Positions 3,660-59,236 of a stretch of 59,276 bases of DNA are shown here, piece by piece (positions within the stretch are counted from its first letter, which is position 1; each line of letters starts with the position of its first letter). The translations under genes and the position numbers were made by a program. This stretch comes from an uncultured Parabacteroides sp. (lineage in GTDB: Bacteria > Bacteroidota > Bacteroidia > Bacteroidales > Tannerellaceae): the NCBI GenBank assembly GCA_949295065.1, contig CASFJQ010000013.1, positions 1 to 59,276 of the forward strand. The letters run 5' to 3'. The notes beneath the pieces were generated by a model, which worked only from the letters and a program-made list of their open reading frames with translations, did no database searches and was not told where the DNA came from.

Positions 3660-3728
3660 GATGAAAAATAGTTTTATAGTTTATTCAATATTTTATTTCA
3701 AAATAGAATTCAAATCCAATCTGTTTTG

Positions 3729-3760
3729 CCTTGTCAACTTGTCTCTGAAACCTTGTCAAC
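3729..3760. repeat. Palindromic intergenic repeat, copy A (fragment)
   Basis: CCTTGTCAACTTGTCTCTGA followed by AACCTTGTCAAC matches the right half of the full-length copy at 13789-13942. It abuts the TonB receptor stop codon; its last base is the first base of that codon. Confidence 0.8.
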
Positions 3761-6423
3761 TACAATTTATATCTTATACCTAACATAATGGACTGTCCGT
3801 GCCATTCTTTTCTTTCAATTACGTTTCCGTTGTATCTTTCGTAATTGACATTCTCAGTATGCGGACCTTTTTGTATAAAGCGTAATAGGGGAGTGTCAAG
3901 AAGGTTGGATGCTTTTGCATAAATGCTTATGCCGTTTTTGAAACTCTTTTCAAGCGAAGCATCAAGTTGCGCATATCCAGCTTCCCAAATATCATCATCA
4001 AACCAGTTGGAAATGTCGCTTAAGCGTTTGCCTGTGTAACTCATTGCAATCTGACCTTCCCATTTATATTTGCTTTCCTTGAACAAGAGAGACAGATTTG
4101 CAACGTGAGCTGCCTGACCGAACAAAGGTCTGCTTTGTTTGCATGATGTTACTTCTGAACCATCCATAAGTCTCTTGTCAGTTGTGATTCTTGAATGTGT
4201 ATAAGTATAATTGGCTTTTATACCAAACCAGTTGAAATATTTAAGAACGTCAACCTCAACACCCAGGTTGTTTGCGTTACCGAAGTTCATAGGTTTATAA
4301 TAAGTGTCCTGGCCTTCGTTCAGCAATCCGTATTCAATAGGATTAATCAGTCTTTTATAGAACAGACCAACCATGATTTGTTCAGATGTTTTAGGAAAAA
4401 ATTCATATCTCAAATCAATATTGTCGGCTACTGTATGCTTTAGATCAGGATTACCTTTTTCCTTGTAGTCTTCATTGATTATGCTGTAAGGAACAATTTC
4501 GAAAAAGCTAGGTCTGTTTATTGAACGAGCATAAGAAAATCTTACGTTGGCATTCTTATGAATTTCTCTTTTTGCATGGAAACTTGGGAGAATGTCTGTA
4601 TATATCTGTTTGCCTTCAGGGTCAACATCGCGGGCAAATTTCAGTACATATCCTTGGTTTGTATGTTCCACACGAACTCCGGCAGTCAATTCCCATTTGC
4701 CGGAAGTATATTTAACCATACCATAACCAGCTCCAATCTGCTCGGTTGCGTCGTAATTTAGCGGGTCACCAATATTTCCGTACGGACGAGGTTCGAGAAG
4801 AACTTCGTCGAAGTTGTTCCAGTCTTCTCCAATATATTGCGGGTCCTTTGTTCCTGTTGCAGAATCAAAAGTATATTCGTTGAAAAAGCTGTCTCTTTTC
4901 TTGTCTCTGAACATACCGCCGACTGAGAAATCCCAAAAAGACTGGCTGTCGATATTGTGCTTGTAAGATAAATCAACGTAAGCGGCTTTGTCTTTGTCGG
5001 AGTTATGTTCCCATCTTCTGGTTGCAGCGTTTGATGTTTGTATGTGCGAACCCTGCATGAAGATTTCTGTATTGTCCGGAGTTTCGTTGTATGCTTTAGA
5101 AATAACGGCAGACCAGTTTAATTTCAAGGCATTGTTACTTAAAAAGTGATGCTCGCCTTTTAATGTGGAATTTATGATATACTGATGATTCCATTTCATT
5201 CTGACAGAACGCTCTTTGTCATCTTCTCCGTCTCTGACTTCAGCTTCCTGCATATCCATATATCCGTTATACCATGTGAATTTATGCTTTTCGTTTAAAT
5301 GGTAATCCAGTTTTACGTGTGCACCACTTCTTGTCTGTTGTGAAGAGTAGTTGCGGTATTCAATACCGTTGTGTGAAGTTCCCGGCTGATAGTAGAGCAT
5401 ACTTTCTTTACCTCTGTAAGTATTCATGTAGCTTCCAGCTATCATCACACCAAGTTTGTCGCCAAAGAATCTGTCGCCATATGAAACTCCGGCTGTCAAA
5501 TCAGGAAGAGGAGCGTTCCATTTCATTTTCATATTTGAATTGCTGAAATCTTTGGAACTAACCTTGTAGTCTTCCGGTTTGCCTTGAGCCTCGTAAGGAG
5601 ATTGTTTTGTAATGCCACCTTTGTTGAAAGACTGGAAATCTCTGCCGAAATACATTGAATTGTATCCTGTTGAAAGATTGGCAGTGATTTGTCTTTCGGA
5701 TGGAGCATCTTTCATAATAAGATTCACAGCACCACCGATACCATCTCCTTCCATATTTGCTGTAAGAGATTTTGAAACCTCAAGTCTGTCGAGCATTTCA
5801 GAAGGGAAAATATCCAAAGGAACAAATCTGTTTTTATTGTCTGGGCTAGGTATTTTTACTCCGTTTATTAATGTATAATTGTAACGCTTGTCCATACCGC
5901 GAAGTATTGCATATTGTCCTTCGCCGCTACTGTTTCTCTCAATAGTAACGCCGGACATACGCTGAATGACATTTGCTACGGTTATATCCGGTGAAAGTTC
6001 GATGGCTTTGGCACTCATTACGTTTACAACATTCATTGACTGTTTTTCAATGCCGCGTGCACCAGCTTCGGTTCTACCAGGATTATGTGCGATGATTGTT
6101 ACTTCGCCGATATTTTGAGATTCAGCCTCAAGGCTGAAAAGAATTTCATCCGTTGTCTGTGTGTTTATTACTTTCTCAACTGTATGATAACTTAAATAAC
6201 TGCAAACAAGAGTTATCTTTTTGTTTTCGGGTATTTTATTTAATGTGAAAGATCCATCCAGTCCGGTAACAGAACCTATAGTAGGATTTTCTTTTACAAA
6301 AATTGTAGCTCCTATCAGTTCTTCACCTGTTTTTGCGTCTTTAACTTTTCCTTTAAATGTCGCTGCGTTTATAGCTCCGACATATAATGTTGAAATAATA
6401 AACGGAAATATTAACGATTTCAT
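3760..6423 (-). CDS. TonB-dependent outer-membrane receptor (non-SusC type)
   Basis: 887 residues with signal peptide MKSLIFPFIISTLYVGAINA. A carboxypeptidase-D-like domain follows at about 22-110 (FKGKVKDAKTGEELIGATIF), then a plug at about 125-240 (DITVANVIQRMSGVTIERN, YAILRGMDKRYNYTLINGV, GGAVNLIMKDAP) and a barrel ending in the aromatic strand MLGIRYKL. It lacks the SusC signature and has no SusD neighbour, so it resembles the receptors found with phosphatase or phytase genes rather than polysaccharide systems. It is first of three co-oriented genes; the 100-base gap to the next gene holds repeat copy A. Ligand unknown; a phosphorylated compound is inferred from the phosphatase. Confidence 0.92.
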   Translation of the reverse strand: MKSLIFPFIISTLYVGAINAATFKGKVKDAKTGEELIGATIFVKENPTIGSVTGLDGSFTLNKIPENKKITLVCSYLSYHTVEKVINTQTTDEILFSLEAESQNIGEVTIIAHNPGRTEAGARGIEKQSMNVVNVMSAKAIELSPDITVANVIQRMSGVTIERNSSGEGQYAILRGMDKRYNYTLINGVKIPSPDNKNRFVPLDIFPSEMLDRLEVSKSLTANMEGDGIGGAVNLIMKDAPSERQITANLSTGYNSMYFGRDFQSFNKGGITKQSPYEAQGKPEDYKVSSKDFSNSNMKMKWNAPLPDLTAGVSYGDRFFGDKLGVMIAGSYMNTYRGKESMLYYQPGTSHNGIEYRNYSSQQTRSGAHVKLDYHLNEKHKFTWYNGYMDMQEAEVRDGEDDKERSVRMKWNHQYIINSTLKGEHHFLSNNALKLNWSAVISKAYNETPDNTEIFMQGSHIQTSNAATRRWEHNSDKDKAAYVDLSYKHNIDSQSFWDFSVGGMFRDKKRDSFFNEYTFDSATGTKDPQYIGEDWNNFDEVLLEPRPYGNIGDPLNYDATEQIGAGYGMVKYTSGKWELTAGVRVEHTNQGYVLKFARDVDPEGKQIYTDILPSFHAKREIHKNANVRFSYARSINRPSFFEIVPYSIINEDYKEKGNPDLKHTVADNIDLRYEFFPKTSEQIMVGLFYKRLINPIEYGLLNEGQDTYYKPMNFGNANNLGVEVDVLKYFNWFGIKANYTYTHSRITTDKRLMDGSEVTSCKQSRPLFGQAAHVANLSLLFKESKYKWEGQIAMSYTGKRLSDISNWFDDDIWEAGYAQLDASLEKSFKNGISIYAKASNLLDTPLLRFIQKGPHTENVNYERYNGNVIERKEWHGQSIMLGIRYKL

Positions 6424-7771: not shown

Positions 7772-9331
7772 ATGAAACGAATTTGGAAAAATGTAGCAAT
7801 GGTTGTAGTTGTAGCTGCAATCAGTTCGGGTGCAGCAATAGGAACTAGTTCTTATTTGATGCAACAGAAGAATGCAGAGGTTGTAAGTACAGGTGAGTTT
7901 GAAAATACATTTAAGCAGCCGGTTCGTACGGTAGCTTATTCAGCTGTAGCAGCAGAAAACACAGATTTTACAATAGCAGCAGAGAGCGCAGTTCATGGTG
8001 TGGTTCATATCAAGGCTACAACTAATGCTCGTTCTTCATCAGGTGGAGAAAGTTATTTTGACCCTTTTGAATATTTCTTTGGTTTTGGCGGCCGTGGCAA
8101 TTTTCAGCGTCCTACACCTCAACCGAAAGTTGGTTCAGGTTCCGGTGTTATAATTTCAACTGACGGATATATTATTACAAACAATCATGTGGTTGAAGGA
8201 GCAGATGAGCTGGAAGTTACATTGAATGATAACAGAAAATTCACTGCTAAGCTTATAGGAACAGACCCGTCAACTGATATAGCATTGATTAAGATTGAAG
8301 CAGAGAATCTGCCTACTATACCTTTCGGAAATTCTGAAAAGCTGAAAGTTGGAGAATGGGTATTGGCAGTAGGTAACCCGTTTAATCTTACTTCAACTGT
8401 AACTGCTGGAATCGTCAGTGCAAAAGGACGTGGTATTTCTGTAGGTGGTGACAAAACCAAAATTGAATCATTCATTCAGACAGATGCAGCTGTTAACCCA
8501 GGAAACAGTGGTGGAGCATTGGTGAATACAAAAGGTGAATTGGTAGGTATTAACACTGCTATTTATTCTGAAACAGGAAACTTTGCTGGATATTCATTTG
8601 CTGTTCCAATCAGTATCGCCGGAAAAGTAGCAAACGACCTGAAACAGTATGGAACAGTTCAGAGAGCGGTGCTGGGTGTTATGATGCGTAGCGTTGGCGA
8701 CCTGGATGAAATGCTAAGTTATCCAAACCTTCCTGAAGACTTGGAAAAAGACATAAAAGAGCTTAAGGAAATGGTTAAAGTTTCAGAAGGTGCATGCGTA
8801 AGTGATTTCGTAGAACGCAGTTCTGCTAAGGAAGCCGGTTTGGAACGTGGTGACGTTATCATTGCAGTAAATGACGTGAAGGTTAAAAATGCAAATGCTC
8901 TTCAGGAACAGATTAGCAAATATCGTCCTGGTGATAAAGTTCAGATAAAAGTCAACAGAAAAGGAACAGAGAAAGTCTTCACTGTTGAATTGAAGAATGC
9001 ACAAGGAAGTACAAAAGTTGTAGAAAAGACTGACGGTACAGAATTGATGGGTGCAGCTTTCAAAGCTTTGTCAGATAAGGAAAAACGCGAATTGGGAGTA
9101 AGTTATGGTATTGAGGTAACAGGACTTACAAACGGTAAACTGAAAGATGCAGGAATCAAGAAAGGCTTTATAATCATGGTAGTAAACAATCAGAGAATAA
9201 AGACTCCTGAAGATTTCGAAAAGATTGTTGAAAATGCTTTGCAAGGACGTTCTGAAGATCAGGGCTTGTTCATCAAAGGTTTTTATCCTAATGGACGAAC
9301 AAAATATTATGCAATTGATTTGGCAGAATAA
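7772..9331 (+). CDS. htrA: HtrA/DegP-family periplasmic serine protease-chaperone
   Basis: 519 residues. The N-terminal segment MKRIWKNVAMVVVVAAISSG is a signal peptide or anchor. The trypsin-like domain (about 65-300) carries the triad His139 (TNNHVVEGAD), Asp169 (STDIALIKIE) and Ser246 (NPGNSGGAL). Two PDZ domains follow at about 300-415 and 430-515. A Gly/Phe-rich LA loop (about 88-115) is present. The enzyme degrades or refolds damaged envelope proteins. It lies directly upstream of rpoD but is separated from it by a strong hairpin, so the two are likely separate units. Confidence 0.96.
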   Translation: MKRIWKNVAMVVVVAAISSGAAIGTSSYLMQQKNAEVVSTGEFENTFKQPVRTVAYSAVAAENTDFTIAAESAVHGVVHIKATTNARSSSGGESYFDPFEYFFGFGGRGNFQRPTPQPKVGSGSGVIISTDGYIITNNHVVEGADELEVTLNDNRKFTAKLIGTDPSTDIALIKIEAENLPTIPFGNSEKLKVGEWVLAVGNPFNLTSTVTAGIVSAKGRGISVGGDKTKIESFIQTDAAVNPGNSGGALVNTKGELVGINTAIYSETGNFAGYSFAVPISIAGKVANDLKQYGTVQRAVLGVMMRSVGDLDEMLSYPNLPEDLEKDIKELKEMVKVSEGACVSDFVERSSAKEAGLERGDVIIAVNDVKVKNANALQEQISKYRPGDKVQIKVNRKGTEKVFTVELKNAQGSTKVVEKTDGTELMGAAFKALSDKEKRELGVSYGIEVTGLTNGKLKDAGIKKGFIIMVVNNQRIKTPEDFEKIVENALQGRSEDQGLFIKGFYPNGRTKYYAIDLAE

Positions 9332-9339
9332 ATATTATT

Positions 9340-9402
9340 CAAGTTTCTCAATCTTAACTTTCAGTTAACGAGTTGATACGAAAACAAGTTGACAAGAGTT
9401 TT
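9340..9402. repeat. Palindromic intergenic repeat, copy B (left half)
   Basis: AAGTTTCTCAATCTTAACTT followed by TCAGTTAACGAGTTGATACG and ACAAGTTGACAAG aligns with the left half of the full copies. It is closest to the reverse complement of copy H (38711-38777). It lies just after the htrA stop. Confidence 0.75.
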
Positions 9403-9435
9403 ATAGATTCGGACTAAATTTTTGTTAAAAGATTT

Positions 9436-12125: not shown

Positions 12126-12199
12126 TATGATATATTCATCCATATAGCCAAAAGTTTTACTTTTTTATTTGACCTTCTTTTAAATCAAAGAGTTTTATG

Positions 12200-12207
12200 T
12201 ATTTTTG
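12200..12207 (+). promoter_or_regulatory. -7 element that decides the start of the first cyclophilin
   Basis: TATTTTTG, an exact TAnnTTTG match. It overlaps or closely precedes the ATGs at 12197 and 12212. Transcription should begin near 12214, so the ATG at 12239 is the usable start. Confidence 0.65.
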
Positions 12208-12238
12208 TCGAATGAAAAACAAACTAATTATCTGTAAT

Positions 12239-12916
12239 ATGAAATATATTTTTTCCTCATTGCTCATTTCTTTTGTGATGATTTTTGCTGTGGCGTCTGA
12301 TGTGAGAGCACAGGAAGCAGAAACTATTGTTTTGATTGATACCGATATGGGTAAAGTTAAGGTTAAATTGTTTAATGATACACCCAAACACCGTGATAAT
12401 TTCATTAAGAACGTTAACGAAAAACTTTATGACGGTTTGCTCTTTCATCGCGTTATAAAACAGTTTATGATTCAGGCTGGCGATGTTAATTCAAAGGATG
12501 CTCCGATGGATAAACATCTGGGAGATGGAGATTTGGATTATACTATTCCTGCGGAAATTGTTTATCCTAAATATTTTCATAAAGCAGGAATGCTTTGTGC
12601 AGCACGTACCGGTGATGATGTAAACCCTGAAAGAGCATCATCTGCAACACAGTTCTATATTGTTACCGGTAACTTCTTTACCGAAATGGAATTGGATAAG
12701 ATGGAAAAGGAGAAGAACATAACTCTCACTCCTGAACAGAAACAGGCTTACATGCTTGAAGGCGGTGCTCCTCACCTTGATGGTAAATATACTATTTTCG
12801 GCGAAGTGATAAGTGGAATGAAAACTGTCATGAAAATTCAGTTGGTTGAAACTAATGAGGATGACCGTCCGCTTAAGAATATTAAGATTAAATCAATGAA
12901 GATAGTAAAGAAGTGA
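12239..12916 (+). CDS. Cyclophilin-type peptidyl-prolyl isomerase, exported
   Basis: 225 residues from the chosen ATG. MKYIFSSLLISFVMIFAVAS..VRAQ is a clean signal peptide, so it acts in the periplasm. The cyclophilin domain covers most of the rest (TDMGKVKVKLFNDTPKHRDN, LLFHRVIKQFMIQAGD, SATQFYIVTG, GKYTIFGEVISGM). Such enzymes speed cis-trans isomerisation of proline bonds in exported proteins. Earlier in-frame ATGs at 12197 and 12212 would put a hydrophilic, Cys-containing stretch before the signal and fall at or before the predicted transcript start. The next gene is a cytoplasmic paralogue, 94 bases downstream beyond repeat copy C. Confidence 0.9.
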   Translation: MKYIFSSLLISFVMIFAVASDVRAQEAETIVLIDTDMGKVKVKLFNDTPKHRDNFIKNVNEKLYDGLLFHRVIKQFMIQAGDVNSKDAPMDKHLGDGDLDYTIPAEIVYPKYFHKAGMLCAARTGDDVNPERASSATQFYIVTGNFFTEMELDKMEKEKNITLTPEQKQAYMLEGGAPHLDGKYTIFGEVISGMKTVMKIQLVETNEDDRPLKNIKIKSMKIVKK

Positions 12917-12920
12917 TTCT

Positions 12921-12984
12921 GCTGACAAAGTTTCGGAGACAAGTTGACAAGGTTTTTCCCTCGTCAACTTGTCAACTCGTCCCC
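12921..12984. repeat. Palindromic intergenic repeat, copy C
   Basis: AAGTTTCGGAGACAAGTTGA and GTCAACTTGTCAACTCGTCC are its two halves. The inner arms GACAAGTTGAC (12938-12948) and GTCAACTTGTC (12963-12973) pair perfectly. It lies between the two cyclophilin genes. Confidence 0.85.
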
Positions 12985-13010
12985 TAATATATTAATCTAA
13001 AAAAACTATC

Positions 13011-13781
13011 ATGACAAATTTATCAGAAACAAAAGTTGTTATGCACACAACTCTTGGAGACATAACTTTGAAGTTATATAACGAAACTCCAAAACATCGT
13101 GACAATTTCCTCAAATTGGTTAACGACGGAACTTATAACGGACTTTTATTTCATCGAGTGATAAAGGAATTTATGGTTCAGGGTGGTGATGTGACATCAA
13201 AAGATGCGCCTATGAACAAACAACTTGGAGCCGGTGATCTTGGTTACACAGTGCCAGCTGAGTTTGTTTATCCTAAATATTTCCATAAGAAAGGTGCTTT
13301 GTGCGCTGCTCGTACAGGTGATGAGGTGAATCCGGAAAAGGCATCTTCAGCTTCACAGTTCTATATCGTGACAGGAAAGAAATACAGTGACAGTGAATTG
13401 AAGCAGATGGAAAAACAATTGGAGAATCGTCTGAAACAATCCATTTTTGCTCGTTTGCAGGCAGAAAATAAGTCTAAGATTATGGAATTATATCGTTCAG
13501 GAGATAAGGCTGAATTGGCAATTTTGCGTGACACCTTGATTGGCAAGACTGAAATCGAAGCTGAAAAACGTAAGGATGAAGCAAAACTTACAGAGGAACA
13601 GAAAGAAGTTTACAAAACAGTAGGTGGTGTTCCTTTCCTTGACAATCAATACACTGTGTATGGTGAGGTTGTTGATGGAATGGAAGTTGTTGAGAAAATT
13701 GAGAATTCAAAAACTAACAGACAAGATCGTCCGACAGAGAATATTTCAATTATATCAGTTGAAGTGTTGTCGCAGGAATAA
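13011..13781 (+). CDS. Cyclophilin-type peptidyl-prolyl isomerase, cytoplasmic
   Basis: 256 residues without a signal peptide. It shares most of its core with the preceding gene (ETPKHRDNF, LLFHRVIKEFMVQGGDVTSK, SASQFYIVTG), so the two are paralogues. The difference is a charged insert at about 125-200 rich in Lys/Glu (QMEKQLENRLKQSIFARL, EIEAEKRKDEAKLTEEQK) that looks helical or coiled-coil and may bind client proteins. It presumably acts in protein folding in the cytoplasm. The gene is flanked on both sides by palindromic repeats C and D, which could mark an old duplication or only the usual repeat placement. Confidence 0.92.
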   Translation: MTNLSETKVVMHTTLGDITLKLYNETPKHRDNFLKLVNDGTYNGLLFHRVIKEFMVQGGDVTSKDAPMNKQLGAGDLGYTVPAEFVYPKYFHKKGALCAARTGDEVNPEKASSASQFYIVTGKKYSDSELKQMEKQLENRLKQSIFARLQAENKSKIMELYRSGDKAELAILRDTLIGKTEIEAEKRKDEAKLTEEQKEVYKTVGGVPFLDNQYTVYGEVVDGMEVVEKIENSKTNRQDRPTENISIISVEVLSQE

Positions 13782-13788
13782 ATAACTT

Positions 13789-13942
13789 AAGTTTCGCAGG
13801 CCCAACTTACAGATAACAAGTTAACAAGGAGACAAGTCAACAAGGTTTTCAGATGATAAATTGTAAAGTTACAGTTGTTTTGACCTTGTCAACTTGTCTC
13901 TGAAGCCTTGTTGACCTTTATGTTGAGCAACTTGCGAAACTT
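13789..13942. repeat. Palindromic intergenic repeat, copy D (full length, 154 bases)
   Basis: Bounded by a perfect 10-base terminal inverted repeat AAGTTTCGCA (13789-13798) / TGCGAAACTT (13933-13942). Inside are AACAAGTTAACAAGGAGACA on the left and CCTTGTCAACTTGTCTCTGA on the right, so the whole element can fold on itself. It begins 8 bases after the cyclophilin stop and ends 18 bases before the MATE gene. Confidence 0.9.
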
Positions 13943-13960
13943 GAATAATATAATACATAC

Positions 13961-15271
13961 ATGAGTCACTACAAAGAAACTATTCGTCTTGGAGTGCCAA
14001 TCATGCTTGGTCAGCTTGGAATAATTATTGTTGGCTTTGCCGACAATATAATGGTGGGTCACCACAGCACTCAGGAACTGGCGGCAGCTTCGTTTGTGAA
14101 CAATTTCTTCAATTTGGCTTTTATTTTCGGAATGGGCTTTTCATATGGGCTTACTCCGATAATTGGAGGACTTTTCTCTCAGAAGAAATTCACAGAAATA
14201 GGAGGAGTATTGAAAAACAGCCTTTTTATAAATCTTATTGTAGGCATCATATTGAGCCTGCTTATGTTCCTTCTCCTTCTGAACATTGACTATCTCAATC
14301 AGCCTAAGGAATTGTATCCGTATATAATTCCTTATTACTGTCTCCAGTTGGTTTCTGTGATTTTCACAATGTTGTTCAACTCTTTCAAGCAGTTCAGCGA
14401 TGGAACAACCGATACCGTCACACCAATGTGCATAATGCTGAGTGCCAATGTGCTGAACATTATTGGAAATTACATATTGATATATGGAAATTTCGGAGCT
14501 CCTGAAATGGGACTTACAGGTGCCGGTATATCAACACTGGCGAGCCGAATAATAACATTGCTGGCTTTTATATGGCTATTTACCCGCAAAGCAAAATATC
14601 GTAATTACTGGGAAGGTTTCAAACAGTCCAAAATCAACAGAAATTCTATTTCTCATCTTTGCAGACTCGGATTGCCTGTAGGATTCCAAATGGGAGTTGA
14701 AACAGGTTCTTTCAGCCTCAGTGTGATAATGATAGGTTGGATTGGAAGTAATGCTCTTGCCGCCTATCAGATTGCAGGAGTAATAACTACTTTGGGATTT
14801 ATGCTTTATTATGGTGTTGGAGCTGCCGTTACTATCCGTGTAAGCGGATTCAACGGGAAGGGAAGTAAGAGCGACATCCGTGAGGCTGCAAAAGCCGGAT
14901 TGAATATAATAATGAGCAGTGCTATAGTATTTATTATATTCTTACTTATTTTCAGAACACAAATTGGCTATTTGTTCACTAGTGAAAAAGCAGTAGTGGA
15001 CCTTGTTGCCCTATATTGCTGGTTCGTTATTCTTTATCAGTTTGGCGACGGACTTCAGATTGTTTTTGCGAACGCTCTTCGAGGTTTGACTGATGTTAAA
15101 TATATGGCTCGAGCAGCTTTTTTCTGTCATATTTGCCTTGCATTGCCTATCGGATATATTTGCGGTTTTGTGCTGGACTTGGGCTCTGTGGGTGTGTGGT
15201 GCGGTTTTCCTGTGAGTTTGACAACTCTGGGACTTTTGCTGTGGCACCGTTTCAGACTTCTTACAAAATAA
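13961..15271 (+). CDS. MATE-family efflux transporter
   Basis: 436 residues with 12 predicted membrane segments in two homologous halves. The first half contains GQLGIIIVGFADNIMVGHHS, the usual MATE N-terminal signature, and the second GLPVGFQMGVETGSFSLSVI. MATE proteins exchange sodium or protons for cationic drugs or metabolites across the inner membrane. It is probably cotranscribed with the cyclophilin or driven by a promoter within repeat copy D, since no good -7 element was found in the 18 bases left. A strong hairpin follows the stop. Confidence 0.93.
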   Translation: MSHYKETIRLGVPIMLGQLGIIIVGFADNIMVGHHSTQELAAASFVNNFFNLAFIFGMGFSYGLTPIIGGLFSQKKFTEIGGVLKNSLFINLIVGIILSLLMFLLLLNIDYLNQPKELYPYIIPYYCLQLVSVIFTMLFNSFKQFSDGTTDTVTPMCIMLSANVLNIIGNYILIYGNFGAPEMGLTGAGISTLASRIITLLAFIWLFTRKAKYRNYWEGFKQSKINRNSISHLCRLGLPVGFQMGVETGSFSLSVIMIGWIGSNALAAYQIAGVITTLGFMLYYGVGAAVTIRVSGFNGKGSKSDIREAAKAGLNIIMSSAIVFIIFLLIFRTQIGYLFTSEKAVVDLVALYCWFVILYQFGDGLQIVFANALRGLTDVKYMARAAFFCHICLALPIGYICGFVLDLGSVGVWCGFPVSLTTLGLLLWHRFRLLTK

Positions 15272-23474: not shown

Positions 23475-23488
23475 ATTATAAAATATTT

Positions 23489-23605
23489 AAGTTTCGCAAG
23501 CTGCTCAACTTAAAAGTTAACAAGGCTTCAGAGGCAAGTTTACAAGGTCAATTAACTTATCATCTTGTCAACTTGTTATCTGTGGAAGTTGAGTTTGCGA
23601 AACTT
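23489..23605. repeat. Palindromic intergenic repeat, copy E (full length, 117 bases)
   Basis: Perfect 11-base terminal inverted repeat AAGTTTCGCAA (23489-23499) / TTGCGAAACTT (23595-23605). Inside are GTTAACAAGGCTTCAGAGGC and ATCTTGTCAACTTGTTATCT. It fills the 144-base gap between the FKBP gene and yaaA. Confidence 0.9.
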
Positions 23606-23618
23606 GAGTTATGTATAT

Positions 23619-29275: not shown

Positions 29276-29551
29276 ACGTTCGGACCAAAACTAGTTTACT
29301 TCCGTATATATTGAGAATTACTTTCGGATATGATTTCTTCTCAATTATTAATAATCATTCTAGAGTTGAGAGACAGATGGATGTTTGATTATTGGTTTTG
29401 TAAGTTTCTGAAAATTATATACCCGGAAATTGCGTGTAAAAGTATAAAAAGATGATACGACGGGTAAAATAATAAACTTGTTTTTCCTCTAAACGCGTAA
29501 ATTAAAGTTTAGTTTACAAAAGATGAGTATGTGTTTTCTGAGAAATTATTG

Positions 29552-29559
29552 TATTTTTG
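29552..29559 (+). promoter_or_regulatory. -7 element that decides the GH78 start
   Basis: TATTTTTG, exact match, downstream of the first in-frame ATG at 29523. The transcript should start near 29566, so the ATG at 29589 is used. Confidence 0.65.
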
Positions 29560-29588
29560 TTTGTCTAACCAATAAATCATTACGAAAT

Positions 29589-32168
29589 ATGAAAATCGGA
29601 CTAATCAAAAAAATCGTTCCCTGCCTGATTGCTGCGGGGATGCTTTTCACTCTGTCCTGTTCGACGAAGCAGGAAAAACAAGGAATACACAAGACTGAGG
29701 CTTTGGATAACCAGGCATGGAATTCATCGACATGGATTTCTGTCGTTGATGCTCCGGTGGTGACTGGACCAGTATATGACGGAACAAGAGCTGCCGATGG
29801 TGCCAGTTGGTTTGTATCGACGGTGAAGAACAGCCGGAAGGTGAGCAGCGCGCGGTGGATGACTTCGGCTCTTGGGGTGTATGATATATATGTGAACGGA
29901 AAACTTATCGGTGATGAAATTCTGAAACCGGGGTTCACACATTATGAGAAGACTAAACTTTCTTTCACTTATGATATAACTGATGCTTTCAACACTGAGG
30001 CGGAGGCTGAGAATGTGCTGTCGGCACAGGTCACTCCGGGATGGTGGGCGGACAAGATTATTACTCCGGGAAACCATGATGGAATGGTTGGCAAGAAATG
30101 TGCTTTCCGCGGCGTGCTTGAGCTTACTTATTCCGACGGTAGCAAGGAGCTGTTTGGCACGGACACTAAGAACTGGAAGGCGGGTATTGCCGGCCCGGTG
30201 ACTCATGCGGCTATTTTTGACGGTGAGGAATATGATGCCAGAATTCTTCCGGGTTATGAAACTCCTGAGAAATTGTCGGCTCCGGAAGTGAACAGCGAGT
30301 TCAAGGGCGAGCTGGTGCCGTCGGAAGGTGCTGAGATTTATTTCCGCCACGATTTGACTCTTTCGCCTGTGAAGGCTTATGTGTGGGAAGGCGTAAGTGG
30401 CGAGAGCAAGGATGAATTTGGAAAAATCATTGTCAAGAAGGAATATAAGGCGGGTGAGCCGATGACGGTGAAGCCGGGCGAGAAACTGGTGGTTGACTTC
30501 GGTCAGAATTGTGCGGGTGTGCCGTCATTTGTGTTCAATGCTGCTGAGGGAACTGTTATGGAGTGTATCACTTCGGAATTGCTGAATGACGGAAACGGGG
30601 CTAAGAGTCGCGGTATGGATGGTCCGGAGGGAAGTGTTCACCGCCTGAATCTGAGAATCCCGGATAGCGGAATGATTTTGAAATATACTTTTGCCAATTC
30701 AGCTGAGGATGTAAGTTATATTCCGAGATGCACTTTCTTCGGTTATCGCTATGTTTCAATTACTGCTTCTGCCGAGGTTAATATCAGTAAGATTGAATCT
30801 GTGCCTGTCACTTCAATTACGAAGGAAATGGAATGTGGAAGTATTACTACGGGAAATGATATGGTGAACAAGCTGATATCAAATACTCTTTGGGGACAGC
30901 GCTCAAATTATCTTTCTGTTCCGACTGACTGCCCGCAGAGAAATGAGAGGTTGGGCTGGACTGCGGATACTCAGGTGTTCACTGAAACTGGTTCGTTCTT
31001 TGCAAACACTTCTTCTTTCTTCCATAAGTGGATGCGTGATATGATGGACAGCCAGAGTGAGCTGGGCGGTTTCCCGGGTGTTGCTCCTTTGGCTCAATAT
31101 GGAAATGAGATGATGCGTCTGGGATGGGCGGATGCAGGTATAATCGTGCCTTGGACTATATGGAAGCAGTTTGGCGACACTAAGATTATCGACCAGTGCT
31201 GGGACTCGATGGATAAATTCATGAATCATATCAACGACACGAAGTATGACCACAAGACTCTGGTGAATGAGAATATGAATTATCAGTGGGCGGACTGGTT
31301 GAGCTATGAGCCGCTGGAAAGCTGTGGTGGCGGTGCTTTCGACAAGAAAGGTCCTCTGCCTGAGGCTGTGGATTACTGGAATTATCTGAGTGCATCATAT
31401 TGGGTGATTGATGCAGGAATGATGCGTGATATGGCTGCCGCAAGCGGAAGAGATGCTTCGAAATATGAGAAAATGGTTGCCGATGCTAAGGCTTATATAA
31501 AGGAGAATTTCTTCACTGCTGATGGAAAGTTCAAGACTGAGATTCTGAACACTATGCAGACTCCGGCTTTGTTTGCCCTGAAGAATGAGATTTGGGATGG
31601 CAAGGCTAAGGAGAATATGATTTCACGATTGAGAAAGAATTTTGAGGAGCATGACAATTGCTTGCAGACCGGTTTCCTTGGAACTTCAATACTTATGCCT
31701 ACGCTTACTGAAAACGGCATGTCGGATATTGCATGGGAATTGTTGTTGCAGCGTAAGAATCCGAGCTGGCTGTATTCAATCGACAACGGTGCCACCACTA
31801 TATGGGAAAGATGGAATAGTTATATGATTGAAAGCGGAATGGGACCTAAGGGTATGAACAGTTTCAATCATTATGCTTATGGCGTGGTTTGCGAATGGAT
31901 TTGGGAGAGTGTTGCCGGCATTGCTTCGGATACGGCTAATCCTGGTTTCAAGCATATCATAATGAAGCCTGTTCCGGACAAGAGACTGGGCCATGTGGAT
32001 GCTGTTTATGATTCTGCTTCCGGACGTATCAAGAGTTCATGGAGATATGAGGGTGATACGTGGATATGGAATTTCTCTGTTCCGGAAGGATGTACGGCAT
32101 CGGTTACTCTTCCAGGAGAAATTGAGGCTAAGGTTTATGAGGCAGGTGAGTATGAGGTGAGGAGATAA
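29589..32168 (+). CDS. GH78 alpha-L-rhamnosidase lipoprotein
   Basis: 859 residues from the chosen ATG, with lipobox TLSC (Cys24). N-terminal beta-sandwich domains (about 80-380, including WMTSALGVYDIYVNGKLIGD and TPGWWADK) precede an (alpha/alpha)6 barrel with the hallmark PTDCPQRNERLGWTADTQVF and MRDMMDSQSELGGFPGVAP. A C-terminal beta domain follows. The enzyme removes terminal alpha-L-rhamnose from glycans, pectin RG-I/II or flavonoid glycosides. It has its own promoter and no SusCD neighbours. The start at 29523 was rejected because it adds 22 residues before the signal peptide and precedes the promoter. Confidence 0.9.
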   Translation: MKIGLIKKIVPCLIAAGMLFTLSCSTKQEKQGIHKTEALDNQAWNSSTWISVVDAPVVTGPVYDGTRAADGASWFVSTVKNSRKVSSARWMTSALGVYDIYVNGKLIGDEILKPGFTHYEKTKLSFTYDITDAFNTEAEAENVLSAQVTPGWWADKIITPGNHDGMVGKKCAFRGVLELTYSDGSKELFGTDTKNWKAGIAGPVTHAAIFDGEEYDARILPGYETPEKLSAPEVNSEFKGELVPSEGAEIYFRHDLTLSPVKAYVWEGVSGESKDEFGKIIVKKEYKAGEPMTVKPGEKLVVDFGQNCAGVPSFVFNAAEGTVMECITSELLNDGNGAKSRGMDGPEGSVHRLNLRIPDSGMILKYTFANSAEDVSYIPRCTFFGYRYVSITASAEVNISKIESVPVTSITKEMECGSITTGNDMVNKLISNTLWGQRSNYLSVPTDCPQRNERLGWTADTQVFTETGSFFANTSSFFHKWMRDMMDSQSELGGFPGVAPLAQYGNEMMRLGWADAGIIVPWTIWKQFGDTKIIDQCWDSMDKFMNHINDTKYDHKTLVNENMNYQWADWLSYEPLESCGGGAFDKKGPLPEAVDYWNYLSASYWVIDAGMMRDMAAASGRDASKYEKMVADAKAYIKENFFTADGKFKTEILNTMQTPALFALKNEIWDGKAKENMISRLRKNFEEHDNCLQTGFLGTSILMPTLTENGMSDIAWELLLQRKNPSWLYSIDNGATTIWERWNSYMIESGMGPKGMNSFNHYAYGVVCEWIWESVAGIASDTANPGFKHIIMKPVPDKRLGHVDAVYDSASGRIKSSWRYEGDTWIWNFSVPEGCTASVTLPGEIEAKVYEAGEYEVRR

Positions 32169-32236
32169 GGAGATAAGTTGACGAGTTGACAAGGTTTATT
32201 ACTTAGTCTTGTCAACTCGTCTCTGAAGCCTTGTTC
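32169..32236. repeat. Palindromic intergenic repeat, copy F
   Basis: ACGAGTTGACAAG (32181-32193) pairs perfectly with CTTGTCAACTCGT (32208-32220) over a 14-base loop; flanks AGATAAGTTG and CTCTGAAGCCTTGTTCCC match the family. It starts directly after the GH78 stop and may act as its terminator. Confidence 0.88.
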
Positions 32237-32255
32237 CCTGAAAGAAAACTTTCAC

Positions 32256-34581: not shown

Positions 34582-34618
34582 AAATATGGTTTGAGTTTTT
34601 AAGTTTTTAAGTTTAATT

Positions 34619-34683
34619 GGGGACGATGTGGCGAGTTGACGAGGCTGAAAGTCTTGTTTCCTTGTCTCTGAATCCTTGTCCCC
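34619..34683. repeat. Palindromic intergenic repeat, copy G
   Basis: GGGGACGATGTGGCGAGTTG and CCTTGTCTCTGAATCCTTGT are the two halves, bounded by GGGGAC / GTCCCC. Unit GAGTTGACGAGG matches the family core. It lies between the PagL-like and C11 genes. Confidence 0.75.
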
Positions 34684-38710: not shown

Positions 38711-38777
38711 AGTTGTAGCTCCTGCGAACAACTTGTTTCCTTGCCAACTCGCAATCTGAGAGTTAAGATTGCGAAAC
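38711..38777. repeat. Palindromic intergenic repeat, copy H
   Basis: Read on the minus strand it gives GTTTCGCAATCTTAACTCTC, CGAGTTGGCAAGGAAACAAG, close to copy B. It begins at the base after the YczE stop and its terminal TTGCGAAAC ends at the base before the DUF4105 ATG, filling the gap exactly. Confidence 0.82.
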
Positions 38778-39995
38778 ATGATTAATTTAATATTTAGAGG
38801 CGTGAAGCGAGTAGCATCTATATTGTTTTTGTGTTTTTTGTCGTTGGCAATGTCATGGGCACGTCCTTTGACCGAAAGGGCAAAAGTAAGTCTGTTAACA
38901 AGTTCTCCATACGAGGCGGAGGTTTTCACTGTGTATGGTCATGCAGCTTTAAGGATAAATGACCCTGGGCAGAGAATCGACATTGTATTCAACTACGGAC
39001 TGTTCAGTTTCAATAAACCGTTTTTTGTTTACCGTTTTGCCAGCGGTGAGACTGACTATATGCTTGGCGCAATCAATTATTCTGATTATATCGTGGAATA
39101 TCAGATGCGAGGAAGCACAGTAACGGAGCAGATATTGAATCTGACAGCTGAAGAGAAAGAAGCAATATGGCTTGCTTTGCAGGAAAACTATAAACCGGAG
39201 AACAGGGAATATCGTTATAATTTCTTCTTTGACAATTGCGCGACACGACCTGTTGCTTTAATAGAAAAGAATGTGGCCGGGAATGTGGATTATTCAGGAT
39301 GGAAAGCCGATAGTCTGTCTTTTCGTGATATGATTAATGATTGTACCCGCAATAAGCCGTGGCTTACATTTGGATGTGATTTGGCTTTGGGAAGTCCGAC
39401 AGACCGGATGGCAACAAAGCATGAGATGATGTTTCTTCCCATGTTTCTTAAAGATGCTTTTGCAAAGGCTGAGATAGTGGGTGAAGACGGAACAAGAAGG
39501 AAACTGGTGGAAGAAACCATCGTTTTGCCTTCCGAGCCGGATGAAGCAGAGAAAACTATTATTACTCCGCTTGTGGCTGCGATATTACTGCTAGTTTTCT
39601 TCGTTGCGATTTCTCTGTTGGAATTAAGGACGAAAAAATATTTTGCTGTGGTGGACGGAATGCTGTTTTTTGTTGCGGGAATTGGTGGATGTGTATTGTT
39701 TTTCTTGTGCTTTGTTTCGGAACATCCCTGCACTTGCCCTAACTGGAATCTGATATGGATTCAACCTTTGCATCTTCTGTCTCCAATATTATATGCAGTA
39801 AAAAAATGGAGAAAAGTCTTTTATTATTATCATTTTATTAACTTTGTGGCGATTTTGCTGTTTGTGCTGTGTTGCAGTTTTATTCCGCAATACTTCAATA
39901 TGGCAGTTATTCCGTTGGCATTTAGCTTGTTGTTACGTAGCGGAATGGTGTTGTCCAAAGTGAAATCAGTAAATAAGACGTTGGCTGATCGTTGA
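38778..39995 (+). CDS. DUF4105 membrane-anchored protein
   Basis: 405 residues. Signal or anchor at about 12-30 (VASILFLCFLSLAMSWA). The DUF4105 domain, at about 35-200, has YGHAALRINDPGQ and YNFFFDNCATRP; the conserved His, Asn and Cys recall the papain-like NlpC group but catalysis is not established. Four or five membrane segments make up the C-terminal third (about 260-390). An in-frame TTG at 38769 lies within repeat copy H and was rejected. Function unknown. Confidence 0.82.
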   Translation: MINLIFRGVKRVASILFLCFLSLAMSWARPLTERAKVSLLTSSPYEAEVFTVYGHAALRINDPGQRIDIVFNYGLFSFNKPFFVYRFASGETDYMLGAINYSDYIVEYQMRGSTVTEQILNLTAEEKEAIWLALQENYKPENREYRYNFFFDNCATRPVALIEKNVAGNVDYSGWKADSLSFRDMINDCTRNKPWLTFGCDLALGSPTDRMATKHEMMFLPMFLKDAFAKAEIVGEDGTRRKLVEETIVLPSEPDEAEKTIITPLVAAILLLVFFVAISLLELRTKKYFAVVDGMLFFVAGIGGCVLFFLCFVSEHPCTCPNWNLIWIQPLHLLSPILYAVKKWRKVFYYYHFINFVAILLFVLCCSFIPQYFNMAVIPLAFSLLLRSGMVLSKVKSVNKTLADR

Positions 39996-53117: not shown

Positions 53118-53631
53118 TAATATCATAAGAGGTCTGATTTATTTTATAGTGTTTTTGTTCATACAGATTGCTGTGTTGAATAATATTCACTTTCTTCGTA
53201 TTGCAACGCCATTTCTATATTTGTATATAATATTGAAAATGCCGGTCGGAATGTCCAGAAGCCTTATATTGCTATTAGCCTTTTTTATAGGACTAATTAT
53301 GGATATGTTTTCCAATACAGCCGGAATGCACGCCTCTGCCTGCACATTTGCTGCATTATGCAGAGTTCCGTTGATAAATTTTCTGGTAGGCAAAGATCAG
53401 GTTGAAGGCAGTTATCCTTCTTTCAACACTTTCGGTTATTCTTCATTTTTCAGATATGTTTTGTTTTTTGTATTATTACATCATATAACTTTGTTCTTGG
53501 TCGAATCATTGAGTTTTTATGACCCATTGTTTATGGTTTTAAGAATATCAGCAAGTGTTGTTTTGACTTCTCTTCTTATTTTTATAGTAGAATCGTTCAA
53601 TATCGTTGTTCGGGAAATTGGAGGCAAATAA
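53110..53631 (+). CDS. mreD: MreD cell-shape membrane protein
   Basis: 173 residues with five or six membrane segments (LIYFIVFLFIQIAVLNNIHF, LILLLAFFIGLIMDMFSNTA, FVLLHHITLFLVESL). The pattern GLIMDMFSNTAGMHASACTF is characteristic of MreD in Bacteroidetes. It links MreC and the enzymes of the elongasome. It starts within mreC and its end overlaps mrdA by 14 bases, so the three are translationally coupled. Confidence 0.92.
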   Translation: MINNIIRGLIYFIVFLFIQIAVLNNIHFLRIATPFLYLYIILKMPVGMSRSLILLLAFFIGLIMDMFSNTAGMHASACTFAALCRVPLINFLVGKDQVEGSYPSFNTFGYSSFFRYVLFFVLLHHITLFLVESLSFYDPLFMVLRISASVVLTSLLIFIVESFNIVVREIGGK

Positions 53632-55477
53632 TAAATATGAATTTGAGAACAGGAAGTATGTTCTGATTGCATCAGTACTTCTTGTATTATTGATCTTTAT
53701 AATCCGTTTATTTTCACTTCAAATATTAAATAATGATTATAAGGCTTGGGCTGATAGTAATGCTTTTCTGAAAAGGACAATTTATCCTGCCAGAGGAATA
53801 ATTTATGACCGAAACGGCAAACTTCTTGTTTACAATCAGCCTACGTATGATGTCATGATAATAATGCGCGAAGTTCAGGAGTTTGACACTTTGGACTTCT
53901 GCAATATCGTTGGTATAACCAAAGACCAGTTCCTTAACAGAGTAAAGGATGTGAAAAACAAAAGACTTAATCCTGGATATTCATCCTATGTTCCTCAAGT
54001 ATTTATATCTCAACTTTCAGCTCAGGAATGTGGAGTATTGCAGGAAAAACTATATAAATTCCCCGGATTTTATATACAAAATAGAACTATCCGCGAATAC
54101 AATTATCCTAATGGCGCATTGTTGCTTGGCGATTTAGGTGAAGTAAGTGTAAGTGATTTGAAAGCTGATGATTATTATGTTCGTGGAGATTACTCCGGAC
54201 GTTCAGGAATAGAAAAATCATATGAAAAGGAATTACGAGGAATCAAAGGTATGGAAATTCTTCTTCGTGACGCTCATGGCCGTATTAAGGGCAAATATGA
54301 AGAAGGAAAGCATGATTTGCCTCCGATTTCCGGCAAGAACCTAACTCTGTCAATTGACATGGACTTGCAGGCTTATGGAGAGAAACTCATGCAAAACAAG
54401 TTGGGCGGAATTGTAATGATTGAGCCGTCAACAGGCGAGGTCTTATGTATGGTTTCATCACCTACATTCGACCCAAATTTACTCGTTGGAAGATTACGAG
54501 GCAAGCATCATGGCGAACTTGAGAAGAATCCTTTGAAGCCTTTGTTTAACCGACCTTTAATGGCACAATATCCTCCGGGCTCAACATTCAAGCCAACGCA
54601 GGGACTTATCTTTCTGCAAGAAGGTGTCATCACTCCAGATACTCGTTTTACTTGTGCGCATGGATATACGTTTAGAGGAGGAAAACCTGCCTGTCACGGA
54701 CATCCTTCTCCGATTAATCTGACTGGAGCGATTTCTACTTCTTGTAATTCCTTTTTCCCATGGGGATTACATTATATGCTTGACGACAGAAAATATTACA
54801 AATCTGTTCAGGAAGCTTTTGATGTATGGAAGGACTATATGGTTTCTATGGGATATGGTTATAAATTAGGTATAGATTTGCCGGGAGAGAAACGTGGTTA
54901 TATTCCAAACAGCAAAGTCTATGATAAAATCTACCGTGGCAGATGGAATTCAAGTACAATTATTTCAATAGCTATCGGGCAGGGAGAAATACTTGCCACT
55001 CCTTTGCAAATATGTAATCTTGCAGCAACAGTGGCAAATCAAGGATATTTCATAACTCCTCATGTTGTAAAGGACATTCAAGGTTCATCTTTAGATAGTA
55101 CATATACTGAGAAGAGATACACAAATGTTGATTCCAAATACTATTCTTATATAGCAGAAGGAATGCGTGGAGCCGTTGCCGGTTCTGATTATGGAGCGAC
55201 TTGTAGAGGAGCAAATCTTCCAGACATTGAAGTTTGTGGGAAAACCGGAACAGCAGAGAATCCCCATGGAAAGGACCATTCTATTTTTATGGGTTACGCT
55301 CCATACAAGGAACCCAAAGTTGCCATAGCAGTGTTTGTTGAGAATGCCGGTTTTGGTGCAACTTATGCGGTTCCAATCGGCAGACTGATGATAGAAAAAT
55401 ATCTGAGAGGAAATATATTGCCCGAAAGTGAATCTATTGAGGAATATATTGTAAATTCTGTTATTTTGCCGGAATAG
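53618..55477 (+). CDS. mrdA: Penicillin-binding protein 2 (elongasome transpeptidase)
   Basis: 619 residues if translation starts at the TTG of 53618; another in-frame TTG is at 53606. No in-frame ATG lies near the N-terminus, so the start is non-ATG. One membrane segment (about 17-36) is followed by the dimerisation domain (RTIYPARGIIYDRNGKLLVYN) and a transpeptidase with Ser322 (SxxK: STFK), SCN (STSCNS) and Lys542 (KTG). It cross-links peptidoglycan during elongation with RodA, encoded 36 bases downstream. GGAGG lies inside the first codons, not before them. Confidence 0.95.
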   Translation: MEANNKYEFENRKYVLIASVLLVLLIFIIRLFSLQILNNDYKAWADSNAFLKRTIYPARGIIYDRNGKLLVYNQPTYDVMIIMREVQEFDTLDFCNIVGITKDQFLNRVKDVKNKRLNPGYSSYVPQVFISQLSAQECGVLQEKLYKFPGFYIQNRTIREYNYPNGALLLGDLGEVSVSDLKADDYYVRGDYSGRSGIEKSYEKELRGIKGMEILLRDAHGRIKGKYEEGKHDLPPISGKNLTLSIDMDLQAYGEKLMQNKLGGIVMIEPSTGEVLCMVSSPTFDPNLLVGRLRGKHHGELEKNPLKPLFNRPLMAQYPPGSTFKPTQGLIFLQEGVITPDTRFTCAHGYTFRGGKPACHGHPSPINLTGAISTSCNSFFPWGLHYMLDDRKYYKSVQEAFDVWKDYMVSMGYGYKLGIDLPGEKRGYIPNSKVYDKIYRGRWNSSTIISIAIGQGEILATPLQICNLAATVANQGYFITPHVVKDIQGSSLDSTYTEKRYTNVDSKYYSYIAEGMRGAVAGSDYGATCRGANLPDIEVCGKTGTAENPHGKDHSIFMGYAPYKEPKVAIAVFVENAGFGATYAVPIGRLMIEKYLRGNILPESESIEEYIVNSVILPE

Positions 55478-58876: not shown

Positions 58877-58955
58877 ACGAAATAAACTGATAGATTCGGC
58901 ATTTATGAGGATTTTTATATGCTTGACTTAAGACTTGAATACCTATTACTTCTCA

Positions 58956-59027
58956 CTTGATTATCTGAGAACTCTTCTCGACTTGTTTTCTTGTCACCCC
59001 GTTAACTGAAAATTTAGTTCAGCGAAG
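58956..59027. repeat. Palindromic intergenic repeat, copy I
   Basis: On the minus strand it reads CTTCGCTGAACTAAATTTTC, AGTTAACGGGGTGACAAGAA, AACAAGTCGAGAAGAGTTCT, a diverged left half close to copies B and E. Confidence 0.65.
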
Positions 59028-59236
59028 CTCATATAAAATTATTAATCTGTAAAATAGGTATAAACATCAAGTTTATTGATACAAAATTGTTTGTCCGTGG
59101 TTACTAATTTTGTGTTATTAATATCAGAATATTATTTCTAAATATGCGAATATCTGTTTTTTGAATATTTAAGTAAGCCAGGGCAAACGCATTAGAAAAA
59201 TATATATCTTTAAAGTCTTAAATCAAGAATTGTATC

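Follow-up and report, generated by a model that had tools for sequence, protein, structure and literature searches.

The window analysed in this study is a 59,276-nucleotide stretch of one contig (CASFJQ010000013.1, assembly GCA_949295065.1) of an uncultured Parabacteroides sp. It contains the adjacent paralogous genes 12197-12916 and 13011-13781, the latter of which matches cyclophilin-type peptidyl-prolyl isomerases in a PDB search, and gene 53606-55477, which matches penicillin-binding protein MrdA in the same kind of search. Palindromic repeats lie between its genes. One of them, on the plus strand at 13786..13945 (element 13789-13942, 154 bp, with three border bases per side; the span of its profile match is also given as 13787-13944), is a two-ended copy matched by the family profile with E=1.8e-47, being itself a training-set copy. 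Its perfect 10-base terminal inverted repeats, AAGTTTCGCA at 13789..13798 on the plus strand and the same 10-mer on the minus strand at 13933..13942, were placed from the sequence and an alignment of thirty copies. The hairpin core between them (13810..13920, plus strand, approximately model positions 25-135), delimited by the alignment and by the core boundaries of copies that lack ends, consists of octamer-built arms, an A+T-rich loop, and a conserved internal bulge, YCTGAAGC. No open reading frame of 100 amino acids or more runs across 13789-13942 (about 154 bp). A second two-ended copy is located on the minus strand at 23486..23608 (element 23489-23605, 117 bp); its loop is deleted, its inverted repeats are perfect over 11 bases, and its profile match (E=5.2e-30) is also that of a training-set copy. 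Both copies fold from end to end, as the sequence-only reading had described, with RNA.fold energies of -58.2 kcal/mol for 13789-13942 and -45.5 kcal/mol for 23489-23605 when 10 flanking bases per side are included.

Left-end fragments are found at 9339..9405 on the plus strand (E=1.6e-12, model positions 2-68), 7 bp behind the stop codon of 7772-9331, and at 38729..38781 on the minus strand (E=5.3e-9, model 2-54), and a left end with part of the core lies on the minus strand at 58930..59029 (E=1.3e-12, model 5-102). There are two end-less core hairpins, one on the minus strand at 12922..12985 (E=3.6e-6, model 26-129), 5 bp behind the stop codon of 12197-12916, and the other on the plus strand at 32168..32239 (E=7.1e-10, model 34-131), abutting the stop codon of 29523-32168. 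An arm fragment at 3723..3761 on the plus strand (E=2.2e-6, model 92-131) overlaps the stop codon of the minus-strand gene 3760-6423. A hairpin with a similar arm motif, CTTGTCTCTGAATCCTTGT, at 34619..34683 (no strand assigned) falls below the profile threshold of E<=1e-3 and is a probable but unproven member of the family. The nine related elements first reported are therefore recovered by the profile in eight cases, 34619-34683 being the exception, and the full, both-ended form described for 13789-13942 and 23489-23605 holds for these two of the nine.

The consensus comprises 160 positions with the ends YTYAAGTTTCGCAAG...CTTGCGAAACTTRAR and the layout CTCAAGTTTCGCAAGCTCAACTT / core / AAGTTGAGCAACTTGCGAAACTTAAA. 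In the core, two arm units per side (RAGTTRACRAG and CTYGTYAACTY) surround the A+T-rich loop, and the conserved YCTGAAGC is unpaired on the right. Identity to the consensus averages 0.92-0.93 for the ends, 0.90 for the arms, and 0.82 for the loop. The inner units do recur at 8-base steps, as had been proposed, and above chance frequency, since (RAGTTRAC)2 occurs 230 times in the genome and its reversed pattern 0 times. AGTT triples at exactly 8-bp spacing number 119 in 427 kb of chosen stretches (overlapping, both strands); the seven other spacings tried (5-7, 9-12) give 0-2 apiece. Within the whole window a single 8-bp triple occurs, at 34594, immediately beyond an element. Further octamer runs, TTTTAAGT, TTTTGAGT, and CTACTTAA, adjoin elements (at 34590-34614 and in the flanks of many copies), some of them in the element's 8-base phase with AGTT kept. 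A second repeat, with arms AAACACAGAG...CTCTGTGTTT and a potential hairpin of its own, is seen in stretches L029, L080, L039, and L259, and is nested in MITE copies in the first two.

Copy number and marks of transposition

The genome of the window (2.80 Mb, 70 contigs, 86.8% complete) contains the 10-mer AAGTTTCGCA 46+57 = 103 times, against 6+7 = 13 for the reversed control, and the 12-mer AAGTTTCGCAAG 72 times, against 1 for the control. BLAST with the 154-bp copy gave at least 44 matches with E<=0.01, at least 40 of them with E<1e-21 (40 of 309 candidates scored). A sequence-only profile of thirty copies, including 13789-13942 and 23489-23605, gave at least 151 genome matches with E<=0.01 (150 of 2539 candidates scored), some palindromic places being counted on both strands. 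When applied to about 427 kb, i.e. 95 merged stretches picked for holding copies, whose densities are not an unbiased sample of the genome, the profile marked 160 distinct places: 48 with both ends, 30 with the left end only, 26 with the right end only, and 56 with neither. These places, together with the shared ends of the thirty aligned copies, are far more than a handful of repeats lacking common boundaries. The repeats are a real, amplified, and abundant MITE family of the lineage of one species. Pairwise identity among the thirty aligned copies is 0.63-0.96 (median 0.825), so nothing in this sample points to very recent movement.

Target duplications were first compared with an expectation obtained by pairing the flanks of different copies. 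Of 75 BLAST-distinct copies, 34 have two recognisable ends, and among these 34 exact flanking repeats of at least 8 bp are present in 10 (0.8 expected) and of at least 9 bp in 6 (0.3 expected), such as TTCACTTAT, AATTAATAA, and TGATGATTA. No exact flanking repeat reaches 8 bp in the remaining 24; at the window copy 13789-13942 the repeat is only 5 bp long. In a second test, duplications were found in 11 of 48 two-ended copies (1.8 expected), 2 of 24 left-only copies (0.1), 1 of 20 right-only copies (0.25), and 1 of 25 end-less copies (0.2). Pooling the copies without an end gives 4 of 69 against approximately 0.55, and therefore some few of these may still carry duplications.

Two of the nine window sites were covered by a comparison with 29 stretches from relatives, 23 of them readable at each junction, in which gene starts were placed by alignment to the window proteins, so that gap lengths are approximate by a few codons. 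The three genes around these two elements are syntenic in relatives. At 12916/13011 the window has a gap of 94 bp, and all 23 of the 23 relatives that could be read have one of -5 to 26 bp. At 13781/13961 the window gap is 179 bp long; of 19 true comparisons, 15 give 2-37 bp, 4 of the 23 rows having been dropped because the match to g2 was its paralogue g1 (45-68% identity). The remaining 4 of the 19 hold 92-286 bp of other sequence. The element is absent from both junctions in the relatives, which are empty sites. The differing inserts at 13781/13961 (congener stretches L169, L170, L172, and L174) appear partly palindromic by eye, and this gap looks as if it attracts inserts.

Spread among relatives and source of the ends

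In a consensus search of the order (393 genomes, two candidates scored per genome), matches with E<=1e-5 were obtained only in the genome of the window, and in nine chosen genomes (six congeners and three MAGs) the full-length element gave matches of 21-31 bases only. The (RAGTTRAC)2 pattern occurs 3-9 times in each of the congener genomes G008, G010, G030, and G036, and 0 times in 33 other congeners. Fourteen stretches from these four genomes were inspected. In G010 there are two cores, one of them with a CTGAAGC bulge, and a two-ended copy that is degenerate (E 3.8e-16); G008 holds hairpin cores, G030 octamer runs, and G036 a different inverted repeat with octamer arms, two copies of which (L254, L255) have the same arms around a CGCGTATGCG-containing stretch. 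Since copies and cores occur in congeners while the abundance is found here, the MITE family is probably older than the species and was amplified in its lineage. A scan of public genomes added six MAG stretches, titled Prevotellaceae or Bacteroidaceae, that share one end (four from RUG242, one from UBA4359, and one from Reindeer_1_mag_61). Four of the six (L091, L093, L095, L096) have the same left end and an interior of GGAGTTAAA-like units, and in L093, from one of these named MAGs, the right end differs from that of the MITE where it could be read.

Of the 37 other genomes in the genus, 9 contain the 12-mer AAGTTTCGCAAG, in 1-9 copies each; some of these lie in coding sequence, and in G018 and G025 several of the sites are the ends of insertion sequences. 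Agreement with AAGTTTCGCAAG is complete, at 12 of 12 bases, for the ends in L107, L108, and L109 and on the left of L116, whereas the right end of L116 is one base off and then matches the right end of the MITE through AGTTGCT. Thus YTYAAGTTTCGCAAG stands at both ends of L116, with one base changed on the right. In every pairing, 30-base alignments of the ends of these four elements with those of the MITE score 11.5-20 against shuffle maxima of 7.5-12. L116, an element of G025, runs from TTCAAGTTTCGCAAG to CTTGTGAAACTTGAA; L108 of G018, taken as an insertion-sequence end from its sequence and its position at a contig end, reads TTCAAGTTTCGCAAGTTCAACTT, near the left end of the MITE.

Transposase pieces from this group of insertion sequences fit NCBIfam transpos_IS4_4 (NF049925), namely the second piece of L116 (E 8.8e-32) and pieces of its relatives L117 (1.8e-38) and L118 (4.8e-39), with scores of 110-134 bits that are under the curated cut-off of 250. 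In Pfam the first two transposase pieces have no match and three others give only DDE matches below the cut-off. The gene start of L109 resembles that of L116 (37% over 60 amino acids, E 1.2e-4). Other, more distant members of the group end in AAGTTTCGGATT (L117, L119) or AAGTTTCCCACC (L128); the ends of L119 and L128 agree with that of the MITE at 9 of 12 bases and over 30 bases are not above shuffle maxima. A 9-bp duplication, GTAAATAAC, flanks L128 by eye, and L116, which has the best-fitting ends, shows no clear one by eye. A target duplication of about 9 bp and IS4-group ends are therefore both present in the MITE, distant members of the group sharing only part of the end. Unlike these insertion sequences, the MITE has no transposase gene, and its interior is unlike theirs by eye.

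The congener insertion sequences that share the MITE ends (G018, G025) are broken or cut by contig ends. In the genome of the window, at 86.8% completeness, searches with transpos_IS4_4 (E<=0.01), the L118 piece (E<=1e-10), and the L087 piece (E<=0.001) found nothing. The remark that no transposase is seen nearby agrees with these searches of the whole assembly, which covered Y1 and this IS4 group. A phage origin was rejected after two scans of viral contigs, in which the core motif had no hit and the single stretch returned, L196, resembles the end of an insertion sequence.

Since the ends YTYAAGTTTCGCAAG are common to IS4-family elements of congeners, an IS4-type transposase acting in trans is the most likely mover of the element. 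Overall, it is very probable that the family is a non-autonomous MITE with IS4-type ends, mobilised in trans by such a transposase, which was first amplified and is now decaying. In the proposed mechanism, an IS4-type (DDE) transposase would move a palindromic core, with arms of 8-bp units (RAGTTRAC), lying between IS4-type YTYAAGTTTCGCAAG ends, and each insertion would create an A+T-rich target duplication of 8-10 bp. The element would have multiplied in the lineage of the species, from which the autonomous partner may since have been lost. The family appears to be decaying now, because its copies differ, many are without one or both ends, and the assembly has no such transposase. The MITE half of the initial "REP- or MITE-like" reading is thus supported by shared boundaries, terminal inverted repeats, 8-10 bp duplications in part of the copies, and many copies, as well as by empty sites in relatives and by congener insertion sequences with the same ends.

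Boundary of the core and placement relative to stop codons

Among the copies that lack an end, model positions 129-143 are the stopping point for 40 of the 49 without a right end, and positions 17-34 the starting point for 35 of the 45 without a left end (117 of the 160 places, score of at least 40; both ranges were picked after viewing the data). The lost end was found within 60 bp outside (0-2 mismatches) in 3 of 94 cases, against 0 in shuffled flanks. It therefore appears that the ends were lost, or were never present, at a fixed joint, and the fixed point of loss suggests that the octamer-built hairpin core is a second unit. Simple transposition does not explain the end-less cores, which may stem either from decay at a favoured point of breakage or from a composite origin.

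One alternative proposes two layers, in which an octamer hairpin of greater age, able to spread by a route of its own, came to be surrounded by IS4-type ends. We consider it a minority reading, albeit the strongest of the rivals, and it is compatible with the MITE explanation for two-ended copies, so that the likelihoods assigned to the two are not shares of one whole. The narrow break ranges and the rarity of a lost end nearby are in its favour, as are G008 and G030, which have octamer arrays without AAGTTTCGCAAG, with hairpin cores in the former. However, the end-less cores show little sign of target duplication (the 1 of 25 against 0.2 above), G010 holds its degenerate two-ended copy together with cores, and the losses of left and right ends are only moderately linked (odds ratio 2.5, p 0.02), which might equally result from decay. 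A more specific form, in which the mobile unit is a composite of an octamer hairpin from sister species that was wrapped in IS4-type ends in one lineage and then spread, is slightly more doubtful still.

The elements are biased in position. None lies more than 60 bp inside a called gene. Of 153 places with a score above 20, 131 were counted between two called genes: tandem gaps hold 97 of them (67.5 expected by intergenic length), divergent gaps 21 (41.3 expected), and convergent gaps 13 (22.2 expected), the length control coming from stretches chosen for copies, which are not an unbiased sample. Genes were called by a simple script, with exact stops and approximate starts. Of the 97 elements in tandem gaps, 46 overlap the stop codon or start no more than 12 bp from it, where uniform placement predicts 19.8; by class, the figures are 17 of 32 for two-ended (6.4 expected), 9 of 31 for one-ended (5.1), and 20 of 34 for end-less copies (8.3). 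In gaps of at least 100 bp the excess near the stop codon holds for two-ended copies (8 of 19 against 1.2) and is not clear for end-less copies (2 of 13 against 0.7). Orientation relative to the genes is near even, with same/opposite counts of 20/12, 16/15, and 19/15 for two-ended, one-ended, and end-less copies, respectively.

Such crowding behind stop codons, including that of the end-less cores, and the depletion of divergent gaps would be expected of an RNA or DNA hairpin selected by the host as a transcription terminator or a protector of mRNA 3' ends. We regard this as improbable. Arm mismatches are as frequent within copies as in shuffled pairings (158 against 154.4 for the inner arms, 186 against 182.3 for the outer arms; 87 of 160 places with recognisable motifs on both sides, the 73 others being dropped, a sample that leans to consensus-like copies), no class of copies has significantly fewer, and only 1 of 29 consensus pairs shows a two-sided change. 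The two covariation tests of the arms support no compensatory base changes, and a selected RNA structure is not supported. Moreover, copies are missing from both tested junctions in relatives, and the single terminator-like site in 13700-14050 falls outside the element. A known Rfam RNA was also rejected, since window positions 9000-39000 gave no match at gathering score. Because the arms do not co-vary, the position behind stop codons is read not as a function but as reflecting an A+T-rich, TAA-like target, together with selective removal of insertions that strike genes or promoters.

REP-like elements, the other half of the initial reading, in which a RAYT (Y1) transposase would do the spreading, would also be palindromic, intergenic, high in copy number, and close behind genes, but they are largely refuted and very unlikely here, as no Y1_Tnp is found in the genome of the window by a search that was positive in 5 of 14 control genomes, and two-ended copies are mostly about 150 bp long with terminal inverted repeats and target duplications, and by eye lack the tag of the GTAG/CGTC-tagged 20-40 bp form given in the portion of PMC3733652 consulted.

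Related repeat families and significance

The family is a known kind of element that is unusually abundant and has a built-in hairpin. Among titles and the beginnings of abstracts, no description of this MITE family was found. The closest comparisons are with BrickBuilt of Porphyromonas gingivalis and with pneumococcal BOX. The excerpt of its report describes BrickBuilt as an intergenic MITE with an internal tandem repeat of 23-nt units; one strain carries 19 copies, the nearest genes lie 49-591 nt away, and 3 of 4 examined copies have target duplications (PMC4596501). The present family is likewise an intergenic MITE with an inner tandem repeat and target duplications; going by that excerpt, it differs in its 8-bp units in inverted arms, its far larger number of copies, and its frequent abutment on stop codons. 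BOX of Streptococcus pneumoniae is modular, and some of its copies supply the stop codon of the preceding gene, according to the excerpted part of PMC3049150; some copies here do the same in a repeat that is also modular. The same excerpt states that pneumococcal repeats are over-represented between convergent genes, whereas tandem gaps are over-represented here, and that gaps between cotranscribed genes are argued to tolerate insertions poorly. REP sequences with RAYT are intergenic palindromes, some providing or adjoining stop codons (PMC3733652, in the portion consulted), which is a likeness to the present elements, while the length, the ends, the target duplications, and the absence of a Y1 transposase set these apart from what that portion describes.

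The fixed joint and the crowding behind stop codons are the two features that are new in this finding. The sharp joint between ends and core allows tests of how miniature elements gain or lose their ends. If the composite origin were true, the hairpin would seek stop codons by its own targeting and exist without transposon ends, its octamers would be phase-locked with AGTT kept and the other four bases drifting, and the layers would part at a precise joint; such a unit would have spread to well over a hundred intergenic gaps, many of them within tight gene pairs. Because a family of such abundance has settled within closely spaced, conserved gene pairs, right after the stop codon, the genome offers many natural insertions in which the effect of a hairpin on downstream expression may be measured.
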